From Variovorax sp. PAMC28562 (lineage in GTDB: Bacteria; Pseudomonadota; Gammaproteobacteria; Burkholderiales; Burkholderiaceae_C), in the NCBI RefSeq assembly GCF_014303735.1, contig NZ_CP060296.1, forward strand, positions 1,189,501 to 1,253,500: a stretch of DNA of 64,000 nt. The letters are read 5' to 3'. How positions within the stretch are numbered: position 1 is the first letter of the stretch; every line of letters begins with the position of its first letter. The position numbers and the translations under genes are program-made. This document shows positions 7,455 through 21,340 of this stretch, piece after piece. The notes below the pieces were generated by a model that was not told the origin of the DNA, did no database searches, and worked only from the letters and a program-made list of their open reading frames with translations.

Positions 7455-8738
7455 TCAGGCTGCTACGAACTCGTTCCACTTCTTGACCATGTACTCGTTC
7501 TCGTCCATCACCGCGTTCCAGCAGGCGATGCCGCCCATGCGTTCTTCATAACTGCCGCCGTCGCGGATTGCGCCGGTCTTGGCCAGCACATCGCCGTTCG
7601 GGCTCTTGATGTCTTGCGAAGCGGGTTTGCCTTCCATCCAGTAGGCCCACTCGTAGCCTTCCATCTTGGCCTTGGCGGTGTCGAGCACGGCGCTGTAGTA
7701 GCCCTGGCGATTGAGGTACGCGCCGGCCCAGCCGTCGAGGAACCAGTTGATGAACTCGTAGGCGCCGTCGAGCTTCTTGCCGCTGAGGGTGGCCGGCAGA
7801 CCGAAGCCGGCAGCCCAGGCGCGATAGCCTTCTTTCAGCGGTTGGAAGTTACAGGCGATGCCCTTGGTGCGCACGGCCGTGACGGCCGGCGACCACATCG
7901 ACTGGATCACCACTTCGCCCGAGGCCATCAGGTTGACCGACTCGTTGAAGTCTTTCCAAAGTGCGCGGAACTGGCCGGCCTTCTTGGCTTCGATCAGCGT
8001 CTTGATCGTCAGGTCGATCTCGGCCTTGGTCATGTTGCCCTTGTCGGCGTACTTGTGGATGCCCTTGGCTTCCACCACCATGGCCGCGTCCATGATGCCG
8101 ATCGACGGGATGTTCAGGATGGCTGCCTTGCCCTTGAACTCCGGGTTCAGCAGCTCGGCCCACGAGGTGATGGGGCGCTTGATGAGGTCCGGGCGAATCC
8201 CCAGCGTGTCGGCGTTGTAGACCGTGGGGATGAGCGACATGAACTGCGTCGGCATGGCCGAGAATTTCTTCGACTTTTCGCTTTCGAGGTAGATCACCTT
8301 CTTGGGTGCGGTGCCCTGGTCGCCGACCTTCTTGCCGGCCACTTCGCCCTTGGTGAAGAGCGCGGTGATCTTGTCGGCGTTCTTGATCTTCTTGACGTCG
8401 ATGCCCTTCAGGTTGCCGGTCGGCACGATCTTCTTGAGCGAGAAGAATTCGGTGTCGATCAGGTCGAAGCTGTTGGGCGCGGTCACGGCGCGCTTGGTGA
8501 CATCGTCGGTGGTCACGGCCACATACTGGATCTCGATGCCGGTGTCGGCCTTGAACTTCTCGCCGATGGCCTTGTCCTGGTTGACCGCCGTGCCGAGGTA
8601 GCGCAAGACGATTTTTTCCTGTGCGTGCACGAAGGGCGCGACGCCCGCAGCAAGGATGCCGGCCATGCCCGCGCCGCCTTGCAGCAGGACGCGGCGCTTG
8701 ACGCCATTGGCAGAAGAGTTGTCGATAGGGTCGGACAT
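7455..8738 (-). CDS. Periplasmic substrate-binding protein, PotD-like, Tat-type signal
   Basis: A 427-residue extracellular solute-binding protein. The N terminus has a twin-arginine-like signal (KRRVLLQGGAGMAGI, cleavage near HAQ at about 40), suggesting export in folded form. The body follows the PotD/spermidine-putrescine type, with IVLRYLGTAVNQDKAIGEKF early and a DGAYEFINWFLDG block near the C terminus. It delivers ligand to the permeases encoded downstream. AGGAGG-like sequence GGCCTCC on the opposite strand gives a strong ribosome site just before the ATG. The ligand is unknown. Confidence 0.84.
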   Translation of the reverse strand: MSDPIDNSSANGVKRRVLLQGGAGMAGILAAGVAPFVHAQEKIVLRYLGTAVNQDKAIGEKFKADTGIEIQYVAVTTDDVTKRAVTAPNSFDLIDTEFFSLKKIVPTGNLKGIDVKKIKNADKITALFTKGEVAGKKVGDQGTAPKKVIYLESEKSKKFSAMPTQFMSLIPTVYNADTLGIRPDLIKRPITSWAELLNPEFKGKAAILNIPSIGIMDAAMVVEAKGIHKYADKGNMTKAEIDLTIKTLIEAKKAGQFRALWKDFNESVNLMASGEVVIQSMWSPAVTAVRTKGIACNFQPLKEGYRAWAAGFGLPATLSGKKLDGAYEFINWFLDGWAGAYLNRQGYYSAVLDTAKAKMEGYEWAYWMEGKPASQDIKSPNGDVLAKTGAIRDGGSYEERMGGIACWNAVMDENEYMVKKWNEFVAA

Positions 8739-8841
8739 GAGGAGGCCTCCAGGTTTGTGGTTTGAGAGAACGGGATCGCGGGAATCGGGAGCGGTATCGG
8801 AAGAGTCGAGGACGCGTGGTCGAAGCGTTGCCGACGTGCCG

Positions 8842-9978
8842 TCAGGCGGGAATGGCCGTCAGCACTGCAGTCGCATCGCGGACGGCCGGCACCGCGTTGG
8901 AAGACGGTGGCGCCCTGCGTTCACCGCGCTCCGAAGGCCGCTTGACGCCGGGGCCGAGCACGCGCGCATCGGCTTCGTGCCACGACAGCGTGACCTGCTC
9001 GCCCTGCACGTACGGCCGGGCCAGAAACGGCGCTTCGCCCAGCAACACCGACACGGTCTTGCGGCCCGGTGCGCCTTGCAGCAACTCGAGGCCGAGCAGC
9101 ACATAGGTGCCCTGGTATTCGACGTCGGTGATCTGCGCGGCCACGGCGTTCGCGCCTTGGATGGGCTCGTTGGCCGGTGTGATCAGCATGTGGTCGTTGC
9201 GCACCGCGATCGGCCCGTTCGACGTGTCGATCACGTTGTGGCCTCCCATGAAGCGGGCGACGAATTCGCTGGCCGGATGGTTGTACACATCGTGCGGCGA
9301 GCCGACCTGTTCGATGAGCCCGTGGTTCATGACGACCATGGTGTCGGCCAGTGCCATCGCTTCTTCCTGGGAATGCGTGACGTGGATGAAGGTCAGGCCC
9401 AGTTCCTTTTGCCATCGGCGCAACTCGGCGCGCATCTGGATGCGCAGGAACGGGTCGAGTGCCGAGAGTGGCTCGTCGAGCAGCAGCACGCGCGGTTCGG
9501 TGATGAGGGCGCGCGCCAGCGCCACGCGCTGTTGCTGGCCACCGGAGAGTTCGGCCGGCTTGCGTTCGGCCAGGTGTCCCATGGCCACGCGTTCCAGCAG
9601 GTCACGCGCCTGCTTGTGGCGCTCGACCTTGCGGACGCCTTTCATCTTCAGGCTGAAGGCGACGTTGTCGAGCGCGGAGAGATGCGGAAAGAGCGCGAAG
9701 CTCTGGAACATCATGGCCGTGCCGCGGGCTGCGGCGGGCAAGTCGGTGATGTTGCGGTTGTCCAGCAGGATGTCGCCGCTCGACACCGACTCGTGGCCGG
9801 CGATCATGCGCAAGGTCGTGCTCTTGCCGCAGCCCGAAGGGCCGAGCAGACAGCAGTAGCTTCCGCTGGCGATGCGCAGGTCGATCTGGTCGACGGCCGC
9901 AGGCGTGCCAACAGCGTATTGCTTGGTCAGCGAGACGATTTCGACAGCCGCGGGCGGCAGGGCAGTGACAGCATCCAT
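8842..9978 (-). CDS. ABC transporter ATPase, PotA-type
   Basis: A 378-residue ATPase. Walker A GPSGCGKST (46-54), Q-loop FQSFALFPH, signature LSGGQQQR (about 149-156), Walker B VLLLDEP and the H-loop HVTHSQ are all present, so it should hydrolyse ATP. The C-terminal part (about 240-345) corresponds to a TOBE regulatory domain as in PotA/MalK. It is the first gene of the importer operon; 103 bases separate it from the binding-protein gene. ATG chosen because homology begins just after it (VEIVSLTKQYAVGTPAAVD). Confidence 0.87.
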   Translation of the reverse strand: MDAVTALPPAAVEIVSLTKQYAVGTPAAVDQIDLRIASGSYCCLLGPSGCGKSTTLRMIAGHESVSSGDILLDNRNITDLPAAARGTAMMFQSFALFPHLSALDNVAFSLKMKGVRKVERHKQARDLLERVAMGHLAERKPAELSGGQQQRVALARALITEPRVLLLDEPLSALDPFLRIQMRAELRRWQKELGLTFIHVTHSQEEAMALADTMVVMNHGLIEQVGSPHDVYNHPASEFVARFMGGHNVIDTSNGPIAVRNDHMLITPANEPIQGANAVAAQITDVEYQGTYVLLGLELLQGAPGRKTVSVLLGEAPFLARPYVQGEQVTLSWHEADARVLGPGVKRPSERGERRAPPSSNAVPAVRDATAVLTAIPA

Positions 9979-10070
9979 TTGATGCGGTTGTGCAAGACAT
10001 GTGCCAGTTGTGCGAACGCTCTTGCGCACTTTAGTGGTGCGATGTCTGGAAGACCCGATCGGCACCCAAA

Positions 10071-11336
10071 TCAGGGCGGTGCGAACTTGGCCGCGGCAAC
10101 GTTTTTGAGCAGCGCATCGCGCTGAAAACGGGTCACGCCACGCACTCCTTCGGCGACCCACTTGGCGCGGGCGGCGTCGATGCTGCCATCGCGTTGCCAT
10201 TTCTCGACGGCGACCTGCGGGTTGTTCAGCATGGCGGCCATCCAGACGGCCTGCGCCGGTTCGAGCTTGGCAGCGCTGCGCTTGAAGTAGCGCTTGGCGG
10301 CCGAGTCGGCACCGCACAGGTCGGTGCCCCAGGGTGCGTTGTCGAGGTACAGCTGGAGGATGCGCGCCTTGCCGAGGGTCTGCTCCATCTCGACGGCGTA
10401 GAGCAGCTCGCGCAGCTTGCGTTCTGCCGTGCGGTCGGCGCCGGTGACGAGCAGTCGGGCCAGCTGTTGGGTCAGGGTGCTCCCGCCGCGCTCCACGTGG
10501 CCGCTCTTCTGGTTGCTGTCGATGGAGGCGGTGAGTTCGGTCAGGTCGTAGCCTGTGTGGGTGAAGAAGCGCTGATCTTCGGCGGCGATGACGGCGCGTG
10601 CCAGCCAGCTGTCGTTGCTCAGTTTGGCGGGCGCGCCGCAACTGGTGCGGGCGCCGAGCATCGCTTCGGTGCCGAGCCCTTCGACGGTGAACTGCGCGAT
10701 GCGCGGCTGCAGCGCGAAGGTGCCGGCGGGCAGGGTGAACTGGCCGCGCATCGCCACGCTGCCGCCAATGCGGGCACGTTGCAGCTCGGGCAACGCCGGC
10801 GCAAGCACCGCGTACCAGAGTGCGATGGGCGCATCGGGCAGGTCGACGTTGATGGGCAGTGACTTGGGTGTGAGGCGGCCATCCCAGTTACCGCGCAAAA
10901 GAGTGGCACCGGTGGCCCCGACATTGGCTGCAGGTGTTGCCTCGAGCGTGCCGGCCAGCGCGTTGCCATCGCGACGCACGGTGGCGGTCAGGCGGTCCAG
11001 CCGGATCGGTGCAGAGCCCAGTGCCGGCAGCAACGCACTGCACGGCGCACACCGCAGTTCGAGTGCGCCGACGCTGTCGTTCCAGGCGAAATGCACGGTG
11101 CCGAAACGCGTGTCGAGCGAGCGGCCGTCGAGCCACGGCGCGAACCACGGCGAAGTGGCCACGCGGATGGCCGAGGGCACGCTGACATCGAAATCGACCG
11201 GCCCGAACTTGATGCGCGTCTGCCACTCACCGGCCGCCGGTGCCAGAGTAAAGCGCGCGATCAACGCTGCCGCCACACAGGTGGTGATCACCAGGGCCAG
11301 CAGCCCGAACAGCACGAAACGCAGCGTCTTCTTCAC
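10071..11336 (-). CDS. GT51 transglycosylase-domain protein with long N-terminal region
   Basis: A 421-residue protein with one N-terminal membrane anchor (about 5-27), a roughly 200-residue beta-rich AsmA-like region, and a C-terminal GT51 peptidoglycan glycosyltransferase domain. The catalytic Glu is E253 in AAEDQRFFTH, and GGSTLTQQLARLL (284-296) is the conserved second motif. There is no transpeptidase domain, so it resembles monofunctional enzymes that polymerise lipid II, but it is longer than MtgA. It is the last gene of the vWA-exosortase operon, 31 bases downstream of the preceding gene, which ties cell-wall synthesis to that system. Confidence 0.78.
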   Translation of the reverse strand: MKKTLRFVLFGLLALVITTCVAAALIARFTLAPAAGEWQTRIKFGPVDFDVSVPSAIRVATSPWFAPWLDGRSLDTRFGTVHFAWNDSVGALELRCAPCSALLPALGSAPIRLDRLTATVRRDGNALAGTLEATPAANVGATGATLLRGNWDGRLTPKSLPINVDLPDAPIALWYAVLAPALPELQRARIGGSVAMRGQFTLPAGTFALQPRIAQFTVEGLGTEAMLGARTSCGAPAKLSNDSWLARAVIAAEDQRFFTHTGYDLTELTASIDSNQKSGHVERGGSTLTQQLARLLVTGADRTAERKLRELLYAVEMEQTLGKARILQLYLDNAPWGTDLCGADSAAKRYFKRSAAKLEPAQAVWMAAMLNNPQVAVEKWQRDGSIDAARAKWVAEGVRGVTRFQRDALLKNVAAAKFAPP

Positions 11337-11367: not shown

Positions 11368-11982
11368 TTACATCGGTCTTGTGACGCGGGCGACGGTCAC
11401 GGCCTCCCACGGCCCGGTTGAGCGACCGCTGGCCGCCGCCCAGTACCAGGCTGAAGTGTCGGTGAAAGAAGTGCCCTTCGCATCGACGATGCGCTCGCAG
11501 ACACGCAGGGTTTGTCCCTGTTGGCTTAGGTGGCTCGATGCAATGCGCGTGGCACCTCGCTGGGCGTTGAAGCAGCGCCACAGCCGTTCTTGCGCATCAC
11601 GTTCCAGCCGCGCCTGCACGATGCGATAGCCCAGCGCACGGTAGCAATCGGCGGCGGGATGCAGCATGCGCGTCGGCGCCTCGACCTGCCGCAGCACGAA
11701 CATCTGCTCGCCGTCGGTCATGCGCGCGATGGCGCCCGGAAAGCGGTCGGCGAAGCGGTGCTCGACCTCGCTCGAAGCCAGCGGGCGCAGCGGCACGCCG
11801 CCCCATTCGCGCGGCCATTCGTGGAAGGCTGCTACGGGCTTTTGGGCGTCGGGTGGGGCACGAAGGCCGGAGGCAGTGCTCCACACGAGACACAGCAGCA
11901 TGGCCGCGCCGAACAGGCTCTTGTGCACTGCGCGGTGGATGAAGCGATTGGCGAACCAACGGTCAAAGAGGGGCATCGACAT
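11368..11982 (-). CDS. Small exosortase-associated exported protein (EpsI-like position)
   Basis: A 204-residue protein with a signal anchor (about 22-42) and a periplasmic domain containing paired Cys residues (ADCYRALGY, RLWRCFNAQR, LRVCERI). It begins inside the end of the exosortase gene (20-base overlap) with AGGAGG five bases before the ATG. Small periplasmic proteins of the EpsI type often accompany exosortases, and position suggests the same role here, but sequence similarity is not decisive by eye. Its function is unknown. Confidence 0.6.
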   Translation of the reverse strand: MSMPLFDRWFANRFIHRAVHKSLFGAAMLLCLVWSTASGLRAPPDAQKPVAAFHEWPREWGGVPLRPLASSEVEHRFADRFPGAIARMTDGEQMFVLRQVEAPTRMLHPAADCYRALGYRIVQARLERDAQERLWRCFNAQRGATRIASSHLSQQGQTLRVCERIVDAKGTSFTDTSAWYWAAASGRSTGPWEAVTVARVTRPM

Positions 11983-12874
11983 GGCGGCCTCCTGGGAATG
12001 AAATCAAGCCGGGGATGGCTTTGGTCGTCCGCCTCGCCATGGCCCAGGCGATGCCGCCGCAGACCAGCGCAAGCAGCAGCAAGCCGAACGCGTCGTGCGC
12101 CCAGGGCGCCAGCGCGTGTCCCGCACCTTCGAACGCGACCAGCACCGCATTGCGCACGATGTTGCCGATGAGCACCAGCAGTCCGGCCACGGGCAACCGC
12201 GCCGCGAACTGCCGGTCGGTGCGTCGCACCCACAGCCCGACTACGCAAGCGGTGAAGTAGCCGAGCCAGACCATCTGCACGCCAGAGCACGGCGCGTCGA
12301 CGATGACCATGCGGCCATCGACCAGCAGCGTGCTGCCTTCACGCATCACCTCGAAGCCCGGCATCAGCAGCCATCGGCTGGCTTCGGCCGTGACCACGCG
12401 CAACGGGTAGCCCGCATAGAACTGCAGCGACGAAAGCAGTGGCAATGCCAGCACCGCCAGCCCTGCCACCGGCAACGCGGCGATGCGCTTCGGCAAAAAG
12501 GCGATGAGGCCGCAGGCCAGTGCCAGCACGGCCAGCAGACCGGCCGCGAGCGGCGGCAGAGCAGCCACGACGCCGAGGCCGGTGCGGGCCACGACGGCAA
12601 CCAACGTACCGCCCGTTGCCAGCGCCAGCCACCCGAGCCGCGGCGCCGCGCGCAGCTCGTTTCGAAAATGCCAGACCAGCACGGCCAGCGAAGCGAGGGC
12701 CAGCGCGCCGAGCGGATCGTCCGAGCCGTCGCGCATGCGGATGACCATCCAGCACCAGGTCGGCGTGAGCGCAGCGAACTGCAGTGCGAGCCAGCCGGCG
12801 GCCGGCAGTCGATCGACTTGGATGCTCCAGTCCACGAAACGGGGATGGTGCTGTGCGAGGTGAGCGAGTGTCAT
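11963..12874 (-). CDS. Exosortase (PEP-CTERM protein-sorting transpeptidase-like enzyme)
   Basis: A 303-residue multi-pass membrane protein (about eight hydrophobic segments). The exosortase catalytic triad is visible: Cys196 in DAPCSGVQM, Arg241 in GNIVRNAVLV and His260 in WAHDAFGLL. Exosortases recognise the PEP-CTERM tail of exported proteins and cut within or near it, then release or attach the target. The only candidate target in the window is the protein encoded immediately upstream, whose stop is 18 bases away. This looks like a dedicated one-substrate system. Which numbered exosortase subfamily it belongs to cannot be told without a profile search. Confidence 0.85.
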   Translation of the reverse strand: MTLAHLAQHHPRFVDWSIQVDRLPAAGWLALQFAALTPTWCWMVIRMRDGSDDPLGALALASLAVLVWHFRNELRAAPRLGWLALATGGTLVAVVARTGLGVVAALPPLAAGLLAVLALACGLIAFLPKRIAALPVAGLAVLALPLLSSLQFYAGYPLRVVTAEASRWLLMPGFEVMREGSTLLVDGRMVIVDAPCSGVQMVWLGYFTACVVGLWVRRTDRQFAARLPVAGLLVLIGNIVRNAVLVAFEGAGHALAPWAHDAFGLLLLALVCGGIAWAMARRTTKAIPGLISFPGGRHVDAPL

Positions 12875-12892: not shown

Positions 12893-15025
12893 TCAAGCCG
12901 TAAAGCGGCGGTCGTCGAGCCGGCGCGCGCGGCGGCGCAACATCGCGAGCATCGACAGCACCACCGCGATGGCGCCGAGCGTCTCGGGCTCCGGTGTGCT
13001 CGGCACCTCGGCACCGAGCGTGGCGCCGCCGACAGCCAGCTCGCTCACGCCTTTGGGCAACGGCACCGGCTGGTCGACGCCCGCCGTGTTTTGCGGCGCG
13101 ACATTGCGCACCACCTTGTCGACCGCGATGAAGCTGGTGTACTGCGTGAGCAGGCTGTATTGCAGGCCGAGATCGGTGATGCGCTGCTTGAAGCTGTCGC
13201 CGCCTTCCAGCGTTTCCTGGTCGTTCAGCGACGCGATGCGGTGGCGTGCCCACAGGCTGCGCAGTGCGGCGGTGTCTTGACGCACGGCGCCGTCGACCTT
13301 CAGTTCGTGCCGGTACGGGCCGTTGGCGCTGCGGCCTTCGATGACGATGCGGCCCTTGGGCGCTCCACCATCCGAGTTCGCGCGCCACTTGCCGAACACG
13401 ATTACCGGGCGCTCGCCCATCACGTCGGGCAACGCAGTCGGCTCGACGTCGTACACATCGATGCCTTCGAACTTCGCCTTCACGCTGGCCAGCACCGGCG
13501 ACTCGACCATGCGCCGAAAGCGCGCAGCCTGCTCGGTGGCCTGGATCGGGTCGGTGATGATGAAGGGCTCGCCCATGCCGGCCCGCGCAATGCCTTCCAT
13601 CAGGCTGCGGTTGACCGACGAGCCGATGCCGAAGGCGAACACGTTGGCTTGCGACAGGTTCTTGCGTACCAGCTCGAAGGCCTCGCGCTCGACCGTCACG
13701 TAGCCGTCGGTGATGACCACCACGGTGCGCGACACGTCGGGCTGCTTGGGCTCGGCGTAGACGCGCTTCAGCGCGGGGATGAGCTCGGTGCTGCCGCTGC
13801 CGCTGTAGTTCTGGATGGTCGCGAGCGCCTGTTCGATGTTGGCACGCGTCGCCGGAACCGAGTGCGGCGACAGCATCTTGTTGCTGCCTGAAAACAGCAA
13901 CACATTGAAGGTGTCGCTGGTGCGCAGCCCGCCGATCAGTTCACGGAGCACGACCTTGGCCGTGTCGAGCGGAAAGCCGTGCATCGAACCCGAGATGTCG
14001 ACGACGAAGATGTAGTCGCGTGGCGTGATGGCGGTGGCCGCGACCGACTTGGGCGGCTCGACCATCGCGAGGAAGAAGTTCTCCGCGGCTTCACCGTTCG
14101 GACCTTGGCCCTGGCCTTTGTAGAGCATCAGGCCGGATTCGATCTTCTCGCCAGCCAAGCGGTAGTCGAGCACGAAATCGCGGTTGTCCGCCGGCTCTGC
14201 ACTTTGCGTCAAGATGACGTCCGCGTGTTTGTCTGCATCGCCCTTCTTCACGTCGATGCCATGCGTGCGCGAACGCACTTCCTTGATGCCCATCGGCGTG
14301 TCGATCGCCACCTTCATGGCGAAGATCGTGCCCGGCGGCACGGCCGCACGCAACACCGGTTGCGCGACCCAGCTCGCGTTGGCCTGCGACGACTGCGGAC
14401 TGTTGTAGCGCGGGCCGACCACCGTCGGAAAGACGAACTGGTAGTTACCGGCCTGCGGCACCAGCAACTCGGTGTAGCGCAGCTCGACCTGAATGTCGTC
14501 GCCCGGCAGGATGTTGGCGACGTTCATCTGGAACACGTTGGGCAGATGCTGTTCGAGCAGCGCGGCCGTCTTGCCTTCTTTCTTTGCGGTGTCGTACTCG
14601 ATCTGCGCCTGAAGCTTCTCGCGGATCTGCGCGGTGATGAGGCGATCGGCCAGCCGCACGTTGAGACCGTTCACCGCCGCCTTGGTCGAGCCGGGGAACA
14701 CATACTTGGCTTCGATGGCGCGCTGGCCTTCGTTGCGGTAGTGCTGCGTGACCGTGACGTCGGCGATGACGCCCGTTATGTGCACTTTGACCTCGGTGCC
14801 CTTCAGCGGCAGGCGGTCGACCGTCGGGTCGTCGCTCTTCACGAAGAAATACGGGCTCTCGGTTTTGAGGCGCGGGCCGGGTGCTTCCTGGGCATGCAAT
14901 GGCCGCATGCCGAGGGCGACGAAGCCCAGCGTAGCGAGGCCCACAGTGATCGCCCAGAGCCAGCGGCCCGGACGGGTCGACGCGTCGTTGTTGTCGTTGT
15001 TGTTTAGGTTGTGGCAGGTGTCCAT
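12893..15025 (-). CDS. VIT and von Willebrand A domain protein with PEP-CTERM tail
   Basis: A 710-residue exported protein: N-terminal membrane segment (about 22-45), VIT domain (about 60-190, with VTVTQHYRNEG and EAKYVFPG), vWA domain from about 336 with an intact MIDAS start DISGSMHG (Asp343, Ser345, Ser347), and a C-terminal PEP-CTERM signal: PEP at 678-680, a hydrophobic stretch and a cluster of arginines. vWA domains bind ligands through a divalent metal. It is the first gene of the operon and the presumed substrate of the downstream exosortase. GGAGAAGAAG precedes the ATG. Upstream lies a double cre-tag shared with creD. Confidence 0.88.
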   Translation of the reverse strand: MDTCHNLNNNDNNDASTRPGRWLWAITVGLATLGFVALGMRPLHAQEAPGPRLKTESPYFFVKSDDPTVDRLPLKGTEVKVHITGVIADVTVTQHYRNEGQRAIEAKYVFPGSTKAAVNGLNVRLADRLITAQIREKLQAQIEYDTAKKEGKTAALLEQHLPNVFQMNVANILPGDDIQVELRYTELLVPQAGNYQFVFPTVVGPRYNSPQSSQANASWVAQPVLRAAVPPGTIFAMKVAIDTPMGIKEVRSRTHGIDVKKGDADKHADVILTQSAEPADNRDFVLDYRLAGEKIESGLMLYKGQGQGPNGEAAENFFLAMVEPPKSVAATAITPRDYIFVVDISGSMHGFPLDTAKVVLRELIGGLRTSDTFNVLLFSGSNKMLSPHSVPATRANIEQALATIQNYSGSGSTELIPALKRVYAEPKQPDVSRTVVVITDGYVTVEREAFELVRKNLSQANVFAFGIGSSVNRSLMEGIARAGMGEPFIITDPIQATEQAARFRRMVESPVLASVKAKFEGIDVYDVEPTALPDVMGERPVIVFGKWRANSDGGAPKGRIVIEGRSANGPYRHELKVDGAVRQDTAALRSLWARHRIASLNDQETLEGGDSFKQRITDLGLQYSLLTQYTSFIAVDKVVRNVAPQNTAGVDQPVPLPKGVSELAVGGATLGAEVPSTPEPETLGAIAVVLSMLAMLRRRARRLDDRRFTA

Positions 15026-15135
15026 GACAGCTTCTTCTCCGGTGCGTGCAACGGTGCACGGAGTCGAATGTCGGAGCCCAAGGAGAAGCCGCAATGAAGC
15101 CTTCGCGCGGTGACTTCGAAGGCCGCACGCCTGGT

Positions 15136-15151
15136 GTGAAGTCTGTGTGAA
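15136..15151 (-). promoter_or_regulatory. Perfect cre-tag (CreB binding site)
   Basis: GTGAA-GTCTGT-GTGAA on the plus strand is the exact complement of TTCAC-N6-TTCAC, the cre-tag described for the response regulator CreB in Escherichia coli. It lies 111 bases upstream of the vWA gene start and 82 bases upstream of creD. CreB and CreC are encoded a few kilobases away, so function is likely. Confidence 0.75.
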
Positions 15152-15166
15152 GTGACGCTGTCGATG

Positions 15167-15184
15167 CACTTCACACGGACTTCG
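15167..15184 (+). promoter_or_regulatory. Second, degenerate cre-tag in inverted orientation
   Basis: CACTTCACACGGACTTCG is an inverted copy of bases 15137-15154 with only two mismatches across 18 positions, separated by 12 bases. As a tag it reads TTCAC-ACGGAC-TTCGG. The arrangement gives one site facing each divergent gene (vWA protein to the left, creD to the right). Confidence 0.6.
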
Positions 15185-15232
15185 GATGGCGAGGCGAGCA
15201 TCGGGTCGTTCCACATCCAGGGAGAGAAAAAA

Positions 15233-16630
15233 ATGTTCAAGAACCTTCGCAATTCAGTGCTGTTCAAGATCGGTGTGCTCGTGCTGCTGACATTGTTGTT
15301 GTGCATCCCGCTGGCCGAGATCGGATCGCTGATCAACGAGCGCGGTGGCAGTCGACGGGAAGCAGCAGAAGAGCTCGGCCAGACCTACGCCGGTCCGCAG
15401 ACGCTGGTCGCGCCGCTGCTCATCGTCCCGTACACCGAGCGCTGGTCCGAAGAACAGCGCAACAGCGCCGGCAACGTAACGGGCACTGTAGGGAAGACCA
15501 AATCGCTCACGCACATGGTGTTTCCAGAGACGCTTCGCATCGAAGGCACCATGGCGCCGCAGCAGCGCTATCGCGGCATCTTCAACGTGCTGTTCTATAC
15601 CTTCAATGCCGGGATGGAAGGGCGCTTTGCCGTCTTCGATCCAGCGTCGATCCCGCGCAGCGAAACCGGGTCCACGATTGAAGCGGGCACGCCATACCTC
15701 GCTCTCGGCGTCAGCGATTTGCGTGGCCTCGATGGCTCACCGGCGCTGACGCTGGCTGGCGAAAGGCTGCGCTTCATGCAGCGCGTTCCGGGCCTTGGCA
15801 AAAAAGATGCATGGCTCGCTGGCGGTATTCATGCGCCGCTGGCCGGTGGCGCGTTGAAAGCGTGGAGCGCGAGAGAAGCGCTGCCGTTTACTTTGAAGCT
15901 TGGCTTGGTCGGGCAAGAGACGCTGTCCATCGCGCCGATCGCCGACGACACGACTGCGCATATCACCTCGCCATGGGCCGCGCCGAGCTTCGGTGGACGT
16001 TTTCTGGCATCGGAGCGCAGCGTGACGCCTCAGGGCTTCGACGCACACTGGCGCGTTTCTTCGCTGGTGAGCGCGGCGCGCGAGCAGGTGCGCTCTGGTG
16101 TGGGCGGGCCCCAGGGCAACGCGTTGGAAACTTTCGACGTGACGCTGGCAGAGCCGCTCAACGTGTACGCGATGTCGACACGCGCCGTAAAGTACGGAGG
16201 GCTTTTCGTCGGACTCGTGCTGATGGCCGGCTTCATGTTCGAACTTTTTCGCAAGTTGCGGCTCCATCCTGTGCAATACGGTCTGGTCGGCCTTTCGATC
16301 GCGCTGTTCTTCCTGCTGCTGCTGGCGCTGTCTGAAAAGCTCCTGTTCTGGCAGGCCTATTCTGTTGCTGCAACAGCGAGCGTGTCGCTGCTCGCCGTGT
16401 ACTTCAGCTCGGTGCTCGGCGGCTGGCGGCGCGGCGCTTCTTTCGCTGCCTTCGTGGCGCTGTTGTATGGCGCGCTGTACGGGCTGCTCGCTTCCGAGAG
16501 CAATGCGTTATTGCTCGGCGCCTTGCTGGTGTTCGGCATGCTGGCGGTACTGATGCTGGCGACGCGCAAGGTCGACTGGTACGCGCTGTCGAACGCAACA
16601 ACGGGCCAGCTAGACACCCGCACTCCGTGA
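15233..16630 (+). CDS. creD: CreD-family inner membrane protein
   Basis: A 465-residue inner-membrane protein with an N-terminal helix (about 10-30), a large periplasmic domain (about 35-320) and four to six C-terminal helices. The features SLINERGGSRREAAEELGQTY and PLLIVPYTER near the start, and KYGGLFVGLVLMAGFMFELF near 320-340, are typical of CreD, the main target of the CreBC system, linked to envelope stress and beta-lactam/colicin tolerance. GGGAG lies about nine bases before the ATG. The promoter region carries two cre-tags. Confidence 0.88.
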   Translation: MFKNLRNSVLFKIGVLVLLTLLLCIPLAEIGSLINERGGSRREAAEELGQTYAGPQTLVAPLLIVPYTERWSEEQRNSAGNVTGTVGKTKSLTHMVFPETLRIEGTMAPQQRYRGIFNVLFYTFNAGMEGRFAVFDPASIPRSETGSTIEAGTPYLALGVSDLRGLDGSPALTLAGERLRFMQRVPGLGKKDAWLAGGIHAPLAGGALKAWSAREALPFTLKLGLVGQETLSIAPIADDTTAHITSPWAAPSFGGRFLASERSVTPQGFDAHWRVSSLVSAAREQVRSGVGGPQGNALETFDVTLAEPLNVYAMSTRAVKYGGLFVGLVLMAGFMFELFRKLRLHPVQYGLVGLSIALFFLLLLALSEKLLFWQAYSVAATASVSLLAVYFSSVLGGWRRGASFAAFVALLYGALYGLLASESNALLLGALLVFGMLAVLMLATRKVDWYALSNATTGQLDTRTP

Positions 16631-16673: not shown

Positions 16674-19013
16674 ATGGTTCCGATTCGCAAGCTTTTGAAA
16701 TGGACTGCCGTTACTGTGGCGGCCGGCGCGGTGTCGCTGCTGCTCGTGGGCGGTGTCGCGCTGGCCGTGATCTATCCCAAGCTCCCGGACGTATCGTCGC
16801 TGTCCGACTACCGGCCGAAGCTGCCGCTGCGCATCTTCTCGGCCGAAGGCACGCTGATCGGCGAATTCGGCGAAGAGCGACGCACGCTGACGCCGATCGC
16901 GTCTATTCCCAAGTCGATGAAAGACGCGGTGCTCGCGGTGGAAGACGCGCGCTTCTACGAGCACGGCGGCGTCGATTCGCTCGGCCTGATGCGCGCGGTG
17001 CTAGCCAATCTACGAGGCGGCATGCGCCAAGGCGCTTCCACCATCACGCAGCAGGTGGCGCGCAACGTCTATCTGAGCTCCGAACGCACGCTGAGCCGCA
17101 AGGTCTATGAGGCGCTGCTCGCCTTCAAGCTGGAGAGTCGATTGAGCAAGGACCAGATCCTCGAGATCTACCTGAACCAGATCTACCTCGGTAACCGGGC
17201 CTATGGCTTCGCGGCCGCGTCGGAGGTCTACTTCGGCAAGCCCCTGCAGGACATCACGGTGGCCGAAGCCGCGATGCTGGCCGGCCTGCCGAAGTCGCCC
17301 GGCACCGCCAACCCGATCAACAGCCCGACGCGCGCGCGTGCGCGGCAGCTCCATGTGATCGACCGCATGAAGGACACCGGCTTCATCACCGCTGCACAAG
17401 CCGATGAGGCGAGGCAGGAGCCGCTGCATCTGCGCGATGCGTCGGACCCGAACCGGCCGCACGCCGAATACGTGGCCGAGACGGTGCGGCAACTCATGTA
17501 CGCGCAGTACGGCGACAGCATCTACACGCGCGGCCTGTCGGTGCAGACCACGCTGGTGGCGGCCGATCAGCAGGCGGCGTATCGCTCGTTGCGCAAGGGC
17601 ATCATGGACTACGAGCGACGCCAGACATACCGCGGCCCCGAGGCTTTCGTCGATTTGCCAGACGACCCCAAGGCGCTCGACGATGCGGTCGACGACGCAT
17701 TGGCCGATCACCCGGACAACGACGACGTGATGTCCGCCGTGGTGCTCACCGCGGCACCGAAGTTGGTGACTGCGGTGCGCGGCAACGGCGACATCCTGCA
17801 GATCACGGGCGATGGCCTGCGGCTCGGCCAGCTCGGTCTTTCCGACAAGGCCGGCCCCAACATCAAGGTGCGCCGCGGCGCGGTGATCCGCGTCATGAAG
17901 GCGCCACGCAACACGTGGGAGATGGCGCAGCTGCCCGAGGTCGAAGGTGCGTTCGTCGCAGTCGATCCACGCGATGGCGCGATCAAGGCGATGGTCGGTG
18001 GCTTCGACTTCGGCAAGAGCAAGATGAACCGCGTGACGCAGGCGTGGCGCCAGCCAGGCTCGAGCTTCAAGCCCTTCATCTATTCAGCCGCACTCGAGAA
18101 AGGTTTTACGCCGGTGACCTTGGTCAACGATGCGCCGCTCTTCTTCGATGCGGCCACCATCGGCGGCCAGCCGTGGGAGCCGAAGAATTTCGAAGGCACC
18201 TACGACGGTCCCATGTCGTTGCGGCATGCGCTGCAGGAGTCGAAGAACCTGGTGACGATTCGCGTGCTGCAGTCGATCGGCACGGCGTACGCGCAAGACT
18301 GGATCACGCGCTTCGGCTTCGACAAGGACAAGCATCCGGCGTACCTGCCGATGGGTCTGGGTGCGGGCTCGGTGACGCCGATGCAGATGGCGACCGCCTA
18401 CTCGGTGTTCGCCAACGGTGGCCACCGTGTCGATCCGCACCTGGTGGTGCGCGTGACCGATCGTGATGGCAAGGTGCTGAGCGAAGTGAAGCCACCGGTG
18501 CTCGACGAGAGCAACCGCGCCATTCCGGAGCGCAATGCCTATCTGATGGACAGCTTGCTGCAGAGCGTGATGAAAAGCGGCACCGGCGCCAAGGCCTATC
18601 AAGCACTGAAGCGCGACGACATCTACGGCAAGACGGGCACGACCAACGATTCGGTCGACACTTGGTTCGCGGCGTTCCAGCCGACGATGGTCGGCATCGC
18701 ATGGGTCGGCTACGACACGCCGCGCAAGCTCGGTGTGCGCGGCGAGACCGGCGGCAGCCTGAGCTTGCCGATCTGGGTCGGCTACATGCAGGCCGCGCTC
18801 AAAGGTGTGAAGGTCGCTGAAGTTCCCGAGCCGCCGGGGCTGATGCACGCGGACGGCGAGGTGTTCTTCGACGACTACGGGCCGGGGCGCGGCGTGGCGA
18901 GCCTGGGTCTGGATGCGAACCCGACTGCACCAGCGGAAACCTTGGCGGGGGAGCAGGTCGCACCGGTTGCGCCCGTCGAGGAGCGCAACCGGATTCTCGA
19001 CATGTTCAAGTGA
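16674..19013 (+). CDS. mrcA: Penicillin-binding protein 1A (bifunctional peptidoglycan synthase)
   Basis: A 779-residue class A PBP. After one membrane helix (about 12-34), the GT51 domain holds catalytic Glu90 (AVEDARFYEH) and GASTITQQVARN; the transpeptidase domain has SxxK at Ser463 (GSSFK), SKN at 523-525 and KTG at 653-655, all intact. An OB-like insert is expected between the two domains (about 320-420). It polymerises and cross-links peptidoglycan in the periplasm. It sits between creD and the convergent creC, and its stop overlaps the creC stop by eight bases, with no room for a terminator. Confidence 0.92.
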   Translation: MVPIRKLLKWTAVTVAAGAVSLLLVGGVALAVIYPKLPDVSSLSDYRPKLPLRIFSAEGTLIGEFGEERRTLTPIASIPKSMKDAVLAVEDARFYEHGGVDSLGLMRAVLANLRGGMRQGASTITQQVARNVYLSSERTLSRKVYEALLAFKLESRLSKDQILEIYLNQIYLGNRAYGFAAASEVYFGKPLQDITVAEAAMLAGLPKSPGTANPINSPTRARARQLHVIDRMKDTGFITAAQADEARQEPLHLRDASDPNRPHAEYVAETVRQLMYAQYGDSIYTRGLSVQTTLVAADQQAAYRSLRKGIMDYERRQTYRGPEAFVDLPDDPKALDDAVDDALADHPDNDDVMSAVVLTAAPKLVTAVRGNGDILQITGDGLRLGQLGLSDKAGPNIKVRRGAVIRVMKAPRNTWEMAQLPEVEGAFVAVDPRDGAIKAMVGGFDFGKSKMNRVTQAWRQPGSSFKPFIYSAALEKGFTPVTLVNDAPLFFDAATIGGQPWEPKNFEGTYDGPMSLRHALQESKNLVTIRVLQSIGTAYAQDWITRFGFDKDKHPAYLPMGLGAGSVTPMQMATAYSVFANGGHRVDPHLVVRVTDRDGKVLSEVKPPVLDESNRAIPERNAYLMDSLLQSVMKSGTGAKAYQALKRDDIYGKTGTTNDSVDTWFAAFQPTMVGIAWVGYDTPRKLGVRGETGGSLSLPIWVGYMQAALKGVKVAEVPEPPGLMHADGEVFFDDYGPGRGVASLGLDANPTAPAETLAGEQVAPVAPVEERNRILDMFK

Positions 19014-20481
19014 CGGTTCGATTCGTGTCCCTCGCCAGATAAGACAGCGGCAACGTCAACGTCGCAATCGCCCCGCCGCCCTTCGCATTCGTCAGCTCGA
19101 TGCGGCCACCGTGCAACGCGGTGATCTCCTTGACGAAGGCCAGTCCGAGGCCGGTGCTCTTCTTCAGCGTGTGCGGACGCGCCAGCGAATAGAACTTCTC
19201 GAACACCTTGGATTGCGCGTAGTCGGGGATGCCCGCCCCGTGATCGCGTACGGTGACGACAACGTTGCGGCTCGCTACACGCAGTGCGAGCGTGACCCCT
19301 GCGCCGTCAGGCGAAAAATCGATCGCGTTCGCGAGCAGGTTGCTCACGGCCTGCTGCAAAAGGAACCGATCGCCGTCGCAATACAACTCACCGAGGTCTT
19401 CTCGCGGACCGTCGACCTGCACTGTGATGCCGCGCGCCGCAGCGCTGGTGCCGGCGCTGTCGGCCACCTCGCGCAGCAGCACGCCGAGCGCGACCGGCTC
19501 GGTACGGTCCAGCACGCGGCGTGTCTCCAGCGCGGTGAGCTCCATCATGCGGTCGACGATCTGCTGGATGCGCTCGGTCTCTTGCGCGATGTTGCCGAGG
19601 AAGCGCTCGCGTTCGGCCTCGGGCATGCTGCTTTCCTGCATCAGCTCGGCCGCACCGCGAATCGCCGAGAGCGGGCTCTTGATCTCGTGGGTGAAGGTCT
19701 GAACGTAGTCGGCGACATAGTTGCGGCCGGTGAGGGCGTCGCGCATTTCTCCGAACGCGCCGCGCACCATGACGATGGCGCGCCGCACCATGCGCACCGG
19801 ATGAAAGCCGCGCTGCGTGCGCAGCCATGCAATGTAGTCGGCGGTGAGGCCGAAGGGTCGCACCAGCCACACCGAGAGGATGAGCGTGAAGAGCAGCAGC
19901 GCCGCGGCCGATCCGGCACCGACCCACAAGGTGCGCGCCCGCGCGTCCTCGATGAACTGGCCGAAGCTCTGCACCGGCTTGCCAAGGCTGACGACGCCGA
20001 CGATCTCGTTGTTCCAGCGGATCGGCGCGCCGACGTACATCACCGAGGTGCGCGGATCGCTCTCGACGTCGCGTGAGGTGCGGGCGCCGTAGAGGCCGGC
20101 GAGCGACTTCGTCACGTCGTTCCATTGCGAGTAGTCGGCGCCCTGGTTGCGCCCGAGCGAATCGAACAGCACTCGGCCGTTGCGGTCGGTCACGTAGGCG
20201 CGCAACTCGACGCGGCTCTTGTGCAGGTTGTAGATCTGCGCGGAGAACTCGCGCGCGTAGACCGATTTGAAGATGGGGTCGAGCCGGGCCGGATTGATGG
20301 CACCGGCGATTACGTCCTGCTCCACCATGCTGGCCATGAGCTGCGTCGTGTCGACCAACGACTCTTCGGCCGACTCGCGGTAGCGCGGATTGATATCGAG
20401 CACCACACGATACAGCAGGAACGCGATGCCCGCGCTGTAGATCAGCAGGACGCCGATGAAGATACGGGTTCTCCGGCTCAC
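19006..20481 (-). CDS. creC: Sensor histidine kinase CreC
   Basis: A 491-residue membrane kinase. Two helices (about 7-29 and 186-207) flank a periplasmic sensor with VTDRNGRVLFDSLG, GADYSQWNDV and SVMYVGAPI, segments closely like Escherichia coli CreC. A HAMP-like region, the H-box FTHEIKSP (His265), N-box NLLANAIDF and G-boxes DHGAGIP and STGLGLAFV follow. It phosphorylates CreB, probably in response to envelope or metabolic stress. It starts with GTG four bases after the creB stop, so the two are cotranscribed. Confidence 0.9.
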   Translation of the reverse strand: MSRRTRIFIGVLLIYSAGIAFLLYRVVLDINPRYRESAEESLVDTTQLMASMVEQDVIAGAINPARLDPIFKSVYAREFSAQIYNLHKSRVELRAYVTDRNGRVLFDSLGRNQGADYSQWNDVTKSLAGLYGARTSRDVESDPRTSVMYVGAPIRWNNEIVGVVSLGKPVQSFGQFIEDARARTLWVGAGSAAALLLFTLILSVWLVRPFGLTADYIAWLRTQRGFHPVRMVRRAIVMVRGAFGEMRDALTGRNYVADYVQTFTHEIKSPLSAIRGAAELMQESSMPEAERERFLGNIAQETERIQQIVDRMMELTALETRRVLDRTEPVALGVLLREVADSAGTSAAARGITVQVDGPREDLGELYCDGDRFLLQQAVSNLLANAIDFSPDGAGVTLALRVASRNVVVTVRDHGAGIPDYAQSKVFEKFYSLARPHTLKKSTGLGLAFVKEITALHGGRIELTNAKGGGAIATLTLPLSYLARDTNRTVT

Positions 20482-20485
20482 GCGC

Positions 20486-21340
20486 TCAAACCGGTGTAGG
20501 CGGCAGGTCTTCGTTCAACGCATAGCCGGTGCCGCGCAGCGTGCGGATCGGCTCGACGTCGGGCGCGATCGCCTTGAGCTTGGCACGCAAGGTCTTGACG
20601 TGCGCATCGACCGTGCGGTCGAAGCTGTCGCTGGCGTCGTCCCACACGTGCTGCAGCAACTCGTCGCGCGTGAAGACGCGGCCGGGCCGCTGCACCAGCA
20701 GGCGCAGCAGGCCGTACTCGTAGCGCGAGAGTTCGAGCGGGCGGCCGTAGTAGCGGATTTGCATGCGCTCGGCGTCGAGGGCGAAAGGTGTCTTGCCGAC
20801 GACGACAGGCGTAATCGCTGCGGGCGATGCGATGGTCGGTGCAATGGTCGGTGAAAGAGGAGCGGCTGCCGTTGTGGCCGTGGGCGCAACGCCCACATGC
20901 CGCACGCTGCGCCGCAACACGGTCCGCACCCGTGCCACCAGTTCTCGTGGCGAAAAAGGTTTGGCGATGTAGTCGTCGGCACCCAATTCGAGCCCGACCA
21001 CGCGGTCGATTTCGTCGCTGCGCGCGGTCAGGAAAATCATCGGCACTTCGGGTGCGCCGGTGCTTTGCGTGATGGCCTGCAACCGCTTGAAGAGCTCGAA
21101 GCCGTTGAGGTCGGGCAGGCCGATGTCGAGGATTGCCAGGGCTGGCGGCTGCGCGGTGAATTGCGCGATGGCTTCTTGCGCCGTGGCACACCACACCGGC
21201 TCGAAGCCATCGGACTTGAGTACGTACTGCAGTGTGTCGGCAATGCCCGATTCGTCTTCCGCGATCAGGATGCGCAGTTTGGATGACGCCGATGGCGGCG
21301 TTGGAATCGATGGCGGATGCGGGGATGACATGCCCGGCAT
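20486..21340 (-). CDS. creB: Response regulator CreB (OmpR family)
   Basis: A 284-residue regulator: receiver domain (about 22-140) with phospho-acceptor Asp72 in ALAILDIGLP, then an unusually long Ala/Pro/Thr linker (about 150-190), then a winged-helix DNA-binding domain ending RTLRGTGYAL. OmpR-family proteins are usually about 230 residues; the extra length is the N-terminal tail and the linker. The ATG at 21340 keeps it clear of the cueR-like gene (stop at 21417); another ATG at 21331 is possible. It is expected to bind the cre-tags at 15136-15184. Confidence 0.86.
   Translation of the reverse strand: MPGMSSPHPPSIPTPPSASSKLRILIAEDESGIADTLQYVLKSDGFEPVWCATAQEAIAQFTAQPPALAILDIGLPDLNGFELFKRLQAITQSTGAPEVPMIFLTARSDEIDRVVGLELGADDYIAKPFSPRELVARVRTVLRRSVRHVGVAPTATTAAAPLSPTIAPTIASPAAITPVVVGKTPFALDAERMQIRYYGRPLELSRYEYGLLRLLVQRPGRVFTRDELLQHVWDDASDSFDRTVDAHVKTLRAKLKAIAPDVEPIRTLRGTGYALNEDLPPTPV

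Follow-up and report, generated by a model that had tools for sequence, protein, structure and literature searches.

Examination of the window, the whole stretch of 64,000 nucleotides from Variovorax sp. PAMC28562 that was analysed, revealed two oppositely oriented cre tags between an exosortase gene cassette and creD. The region that carries them would very probably function as a two-way CreB-controlled promoter, serving the exosortase operon on one side and creD with a second PBP1A gene on the other. The features concerned are the following:

10071-11336, minus strand: lone peptidoglycan transglycosylase of the GT51 type, last gene of the cassette
11368-11982, minus strand: EpsI-like partner, here named XapQ, whose match to exosortase T is confined to the C-terminal part of the latter
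11963-12874, minus strand: exosortase Q (XrtQ), matched by NF012182 with 383.9 bits against a cut-off of 270
12893-15025, minus strand: VIT-vWA protein, with VIT and VWA domains and a C-terminus of STPEPE, a hydrophobic stretch and an Arg-rich end
15085-15099, minus strand: weaker 11-bp-phased pair CTTC-N7-CTTC, between the exact tag and the vWA start
15136-15151, minus strand: exact cre tag TTCACACAGACTTCAC (TTCAC-N6-TTCAC), pointing toward vWA-xrtQ
15170-15185, plus strand: inverted weaker cre tag TTCACACGGACTTCGG, 18 bases from the exact tag and pointing toward creD-PBP1A
15233-16630, plus strand: creD, 465.9 bits against a cut-off of 275, divergent from the cassette
16674-19013, plus strand: second PBP1A gene, downstream of creD
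19006-20481, minus strand: creC, 564.5 bits against a cut-off of 356, of the exosortase-associated CreC subfamily by its place in the tree
20486-21283, minus strand: creB, 302 bits against a cut-off of 273

The perfect GTGAA-N6-GTGAA reported in the initial annotation is read at 15136-15151, as an exact TTCAC-N6-TTCAC on the minus strand. Its inverted copy, said to stand 12 bases on with two mismatches in 18, gave the same count in the window, where the gap from ...GTGAAGTG to CACTTCAC... is 12 bases and the 2 mismatches in 18 bases correspond to 2 of the 10 tag positions; creB and creC, placed 5 kb off by the same annotation, do lie about 4-5 kb away. Our reading suggests that the exact tag is the distal predicted CreB site of the exosortase operon, and the CTTC pair likely provides the proximal CreB half-sites.

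The VIT-vWA protein scored 404.7 bits against TIGR03788, under the cut-off of 551.65. What had been described as a PEP-CTERM vWA operon consists of vWA, exosortase Q, the EpsI-like gene and the lone transglycosylase gene. The vWA C-terminus resembles a PEP-CTERM signal, while the PEP-CTERM model gave 17.5 bits on it, under a cut-off of 20.7; this is the best match of that model in the genome, the sole other one (14 bits) being under the cut-off as well. Among 113 vWA homologues read, 109 carry 'PEP' within the last 45 residues; two of the other four read STPEA and two have tails seemingly in the wrong frame. In XrtQ the residues C196, R241 and H260 are invariant, and we propose the VIT-vWA protein as its putative sole substrate. 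Another PBP1A copy elsewhere in the genome is 74% identical to the one downstream of creD. CreB has an OmpR-type output domain (Trans_reg_C) and is 45% identical to E. coli CreB, the recognition helices (DRTVDAHVKTLRAK versus DRTVDTHIKTLRAK) being nearly identical.

When the window was shuffled 100 times, 10 of the resulting sequences had at least one exact tag, a chance level of about one window in ten. The 4.69-Mb genome holds four exact tags against two occurrences of a reversed control pattern, and the three exact tags other than that of the cassette all lie within open reading frames of at least 100 amino acids. The lone string is barely above chance, and it is conservation in relatives that places the exact tag beyond it.

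Of 200 genomes of the same family, 33 (that of the window among them) have an XrtQ scoring over the cut-off, a count that leaves out genomes with partial or weak XrtQ matches (for example G325, G411, G440, G331 and G462). The vWA start was unreadable in two of the 33 loci (L064 and L068). In 29 of the 31 readable loci, the window included, an exact tag stands no more than 450 bases upstream of the vWA match, and the remaining two (L070 and L071) have a one-mismatch tag. A second set of 80 loci, mostly from Variovorax and sharing at least five contigs with the first, came to 79 after L139, which is without vWA, was dropped; 77 have an exact tag, one has a one-mismatch tag and one has none. The locus without a tag is L190, and L158 has only a one-mismatch tag, as does the out-of-family L073. 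The comparison across relatives that the initial annotation had called for thus finds tags that are well conserved and face vWA. Exact tags elsewhere amounted to four in 34 loci (650,599 bases), one of them duplicating the vWA tag of L074, and none were found elsewhere in the loci of the second set. When any perfectly repeated pentamer was considered, TTCAC at a spacing of 6 was present in 29 of the 34 loci, and at the other spacings from 0 to 15 no repeated pentamer reached more than five.

Gene order could be conserved without functional regulation, the tags being kept by recent common descent only; the second set is indeed mostly Variovorax, and the co-occurrence test given below ignores relatedness. 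We regard this as extremely unlikely. The mean column identity of 16 aligned intergenic regions is 27% (ragged ends counted), yet of their 17 invariant columns the tag accounts for 10 and the CTTC pair for 5. Moreover, tags are kept where creBC has moved away, and the layout recurs in a genome of another order.

All exact tags upstream of vWA, in both sets, lie on the vWA strand and point at vWA. The E. coli creD tag TTCACCGTCACTTCAC is on the creD strand, that is, in the same orientation to its target as the tag at vWA, and the exact tags before creD in XrtQ-negative loci are likewise on the creD strand. Because creD tags read on the strand of their target gene, the exact tag is best assigned to vWA; since it always stands upstream of vWA and points at it, the perfect tag would be that of the exosortase operon. 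The tags might instead serve creD and PBP1A only, with the exosortase operon as a passive divergent neighbour. creD is the classical CreB target, and the usual position of a tag is upstream of creD: among 20 XrtQ-negative CreC loci that were opened (of 47), an exact tag precedes creD in 12 and a transglycosylase gene in one. Such a restricted role is nonetheless very unlikely, given that the exact tag points at vWA wherever it is found and is kept without creD, a dispensable gene found in only 13 of the 33 XrtQ genomes. The perfect tag as the site of creD was rejected on these two grounds, orientation and persistence without creD.

The imperfect inverted copy is predicted to serve the divergent gene, whether creD or PBP1A. 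A loose inverted tag was defined as TTCA with a TTC 11 bases further along, no more than 40 bases away from the vWA tag, and it lies mostly 17, 18 or 28 bases from that tag. The comparison was restricted to loci with a vWA tag. Of the 78 in which creD or PBP1A is transcribed away from vWA, 74 have the loose inverted tag, and of the 15 whose upstream gene is codirectional with vWA, none does. These rows are largely near copies; restriction to the diverse set gives 5 of 6 and 0 of 12. This count omits seventeen loci in which no near neighbour was recognised; among these, L150 has an inverted tag. The 15 codirectional loci, two of which are repeats of one contig, speak once more against a role confined to creD, as they lack the inverted tag and yet have a vWA tag that is exact in 14 and has one mismatch in one. 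The proposal that the tags link both sides therefore stands as to conserved sites, with the correction that the perfect tag faces the exosortase operon and the imperfect copy creD/PBP1A. As had also been proposed, CreB control would reach the exosortase operon, a reading supported by the conservation and orientation of the tag.

Of 32 diverse loci, 27 have a CTTC-N7-NTTC pair 18-75 bases past the tag, where mononucleotide shuffles gave a mean of 0.11. This weaker 11-bp-phased pair nearer the start resembles an activator array. The tag itself stands well upstream of the start codon and is oriented as in creD tags, whose effect is activation. Both observations argue against repression of the exosortase operon by CreB, which we consider unlikely even though E. 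coli CreB, according to the available text of PMC3962086, represses malE besides activating seven genes. Activation by CreB remains the preferred reading.

A GTGC/GCAC inverted repeat was observed at 15046-15059 of the window, between the tag and the vWA start, and a similar one recurs near the tag: 66 of 110 loci have it overall, and 11 of 32 in the diverse set. A sigma-70 scan of 14950-15300 found no promoter-like site. At the far end of the cassette, genes resembling those of a polyamine-type ABC transporter (named by eye) lie behind the transglycosylase gene and codirectional with it at 7455-10125 of the window, and are likewise placed in 34 of the 79 second-set loci; read-through into them from the CreB promoter is possible.

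The association with CreBC extends to gene content. CreC was over the cut-off in 79 of the 200 family genomes, namely in 32 of the 33 with XrtQ and in 47 of the 167 others (p 2.7e-14, uncorrected for relatedness), and the lone XrtQ genome without it is 76% complete. It lies within 12 kb of XrtQ in 26 of the 33. Where it is farther off, the vWA tag is exact in four of five readable loci (L059, L061, L066 and L067) and has one mismatch in L070; a sixth locus with distant creBC was unreadable at the tag. OmpR/PhoB-type regulators recognise 11-bp direct repeats, and such genomes hold many of them, so that a different member of this family might use the repeats. This is highly improbable, as the motif is the published CreB tag, CreC co-occurs with XrtQ as described, and unlinked creD genes of the same genomes carry the tag, exact in G419, G333, G414 and G264 and with one mismatch in G390, G412 and G489. 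CreB is the likely reader because these unlinked genes are tagged and its recognition helix is nearly identical to that of E. coli.

A CreC tree of 55 rows was built, with a midpoint root for drawing only and the CreC of three XrtQ genomes left out. Beyond one 100/100 branch lie 28 of the 29 rows from same-family XrtQ genomes, that is, all 25 XrtQ-linked rows and three of the four unlinked ones, together with two out-of-family rows (the second CreC of G032, and G182) and two without XrtQ. The opposite side holds E. coli, 18 XrtQ-negative rows, G480, G279, G077 and the first CreC of G032. The window CreC falls outside the classical creBCD clade of the E. coli protein, the 100/100 branch lying between the two, and by sequence nearly all CreC of the same-family XrtQ genomes define a CreBC subfamily apart from classical creBCD. 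Among the exceptions, G480 combines the cassette and XrtQ with a CreC of the classical side and a degraded vWA tag. Two other loci have an exact tag, directly before creD in L209 and before a transglycosylase gene in L211, and look as if they had lost the cassette. At L211:7362-8991 the transglycosylase gene stands alone after creBC and the exact tag; neither vWA nor XrtQ was found at this place, and the gene looks like a cassette remnant.

Relatives outside the family were also considered. Order-wide, XrtQ was matched in 13 of 300 genomes, four of them over the cut-off, and class-wide the A2 alignment was matched in 4 of 369 genomes besides the window's own. G800, which belongs to another order, shows the layout creB-creC-exact tag-vWA-xrtQ-xapQ. 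In G182 the tag is exact and CreC lies about 17 kb off. In G032 and G077, which belong to one genus, an exact tag precedes a highly divergent operon coding for a VIT-domain protein with a PEP-CTERM-like end and no VWA Pfam match, followed by an XrtQ-like and an EpsI-like gene; G077 has this exact tag, yet its sole over-cut-off CreC is on the classical side. G279, with XrtQ over the cut-off, has only a one-mismatch tag and a classical-side CreC. At L258:517-1431, in G032, an exact tag and a 271-amino acid protein come after the second CreBC pair; for this protein no Pfam or NCBIfam match was found at E 0.001.

Three further genomes (G790, G649 and G559) have related genes, but neither the TTCAC tag nor an over-cut-off CreC was found in them. 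A divergently transcribed CreB-like regulator scored under the cut-off of 273 in G790 (240.8) and G649 (229.2), and the kinase of G790 is CreC-like (195.4 against a cut-off of 356). These two genomes, which belong to two other families than the window's, have a TGCAC-N6-TGCAC pointing at the VIT-type gene (L306:12700-13050 and L307:5650-5920), and each stretch has two or three perfectly repeated pentamers, TGCAC among them. Their CreB-like regulator has a changed recognition helix, DRTIDSH[MI]RRVR, and a matched change of regulator and site is possible.

Exact tags counted over whole genomes were rejected as general evidence. The 33 XrtQ genomes contain 1-17 of them each, against 0-8 for the reversed control. 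The 47 non-cassette tag loci opened in relatives, mostly chosen by a C before the second box, are not a census; 41 of these tags overlap an open reading frame of at least 100 amino acids on either strand, which proves little because the DNA is GC-rich. Five exact tags front envelope genes: creD (L106), a second PBP1A (L098:2481), two MurA-like genes (L095:2120 and L099:2297, if the genes start where homology starts) and an alpha-2-macroglobulin gene (L094:2405). A third MurA case (L102) was discounted, its tag being too far from the gene, and other tags precede genes that share no theme. Judged by eye, none of the exact tags among the matches listed lies at a PBP1A copy, apart from that of G333. 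The tagged genes fit a wall response: in the window they are those for the transglycosylase, the second PBP1A and CreD, and individual relatives add PBP1A, MurA-like and alpha-2-macroglobulin genes. The tags found in single relatives could possibly mark a wall-repair regulon.

Several known systems can be compared with this arrangement. As far as the available text of the sources goes, the cre tag is critical for CreB binding and CreBC is triggered by metabolic signals or peptidoglycan stress (PMC4689548), loss of PBP4 triggers it in Pseudomonas aeruginosa (PMC2654508), and the E. coli CreB targets named are metabolic genes and creD (PMC3962086). With the CreBC/BlrAB regulon of E. coli, Aeromonas, Pseudomonas and Stenotrophomonas, the Variovorax locus shares the tag, its geometry and its orientation to the target; CreB and CreC are over the NCBIfam cut-offs, and creD is adjacent with its own weaker tag. 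It differs in that the exact tag faces the exosortase operon, creD is optional and its CreC falls in a clade apart.

Among systems already known, the nearest in kind is the proteobacterial dedicated sortase system (TIGR03784 sortase, TIGR03788 target and TIGR03785/TIGR03787 pair), in which a VIT-vWA target stands with an adjacent sorting enzyme and an adjacent OmpR-type two-component system. Exosortase Q and CreBC fill those roles here, with one VIT-vWA target, one adjacent sorting enzyme and one adjacent OmpR-type system. Variovorax differs in having an exosortase instead of a sortase, a PEP-CTERM-like tail instead of LPXTG, CreBC and an added transglycosylase; on the window's CreBC the dedicated-pair models reached only 91.9 against 612.2 (TIGR03785) and 133.2 against 335.7 (TIGR03787). 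VIT-vWA proteins bear GlyGly-CTERM, PEP-CTERM or LPXTG tails, which shows that bacteria differ in the enzyme that sorts this family, an exosortase being one of those used; the text covered of that paper does not describe regulation (PMC3237569). A two-component system also controls exosortase substrates in the case of PrsK/PrsR, together with sigma-54 (available parts of PMC1569441 and PMC9850573). PrsR is, however, an NtrC-type regulator of many PEP-CTERM genes, whereas in Variovorax an OmpR-type one would act on a single substrate-exosortase operon; no sigma-54-interacting NtrC-type regulator was identified at the locus, where the neighbouring CreB has an OmpR-type output domain. A CreB-type regulator has been linked to biofilm control in Burkholderia, in a different operon (PMC5192318, in the part available).

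We infer the following course of events. CreC would sense an envelope or peptidoglycan signal, and phosphorylated CreB would bind the two TTCAC half-sites of the exact tag, 11 bp apart, and probably also the weaker 11-bp-phased CTTC pair nearer the promoter. Binding would activate vWA-xrtQ-xapQ-GT51 as a putative operon, and the inverted weaker tag would let CreB switch on creD and the second PBP1A. The VIT-vWA protein would be exported, processed by XrtQ at its C-terminal PEP-CTERM signal and delivered to the cell surface, and the wall may meanwhile be adjusted by the lone glycosyltransferase, PBP1A and CreD. With modest confidence, we lean towards a broader view in which the separate CreBC subfamily, the VIT-vWA protein, exosortase Q, the EpsI-like protein and usually GT51 would make up a self-contained, envelope-stress-induced system for surface-protein assembly, the exosortase counterpart of a dedicated sortase system; CreD would be one of several interchangeable CreB outputs, and regulator and tag would co-evolve (TGCAC versus TTCAC).

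The tag, CreBC and exosortase Q are each already known. The initial annotation knew of no description of CreB control extending to such a protein-sorting system, and in agreement with this no paper joining CreBC and exosortases was among the matches listed in a search that covered few subscription journals; nor was a description of OmpR-type control of an exosortase system found within the literature searched. To our knowledge, what is known of CreBC comes mostly from creD and metabolic genes. Our findings suggest that CreB, known mainly for creD, may run a dedicated protein-sorting system in Variovorax and many related bacteria. With a conserved output dedicated to what would be the production and sorting of a single surface protein, CreBC acquires a concrete job that is open to test in a harmless soil bacterium.
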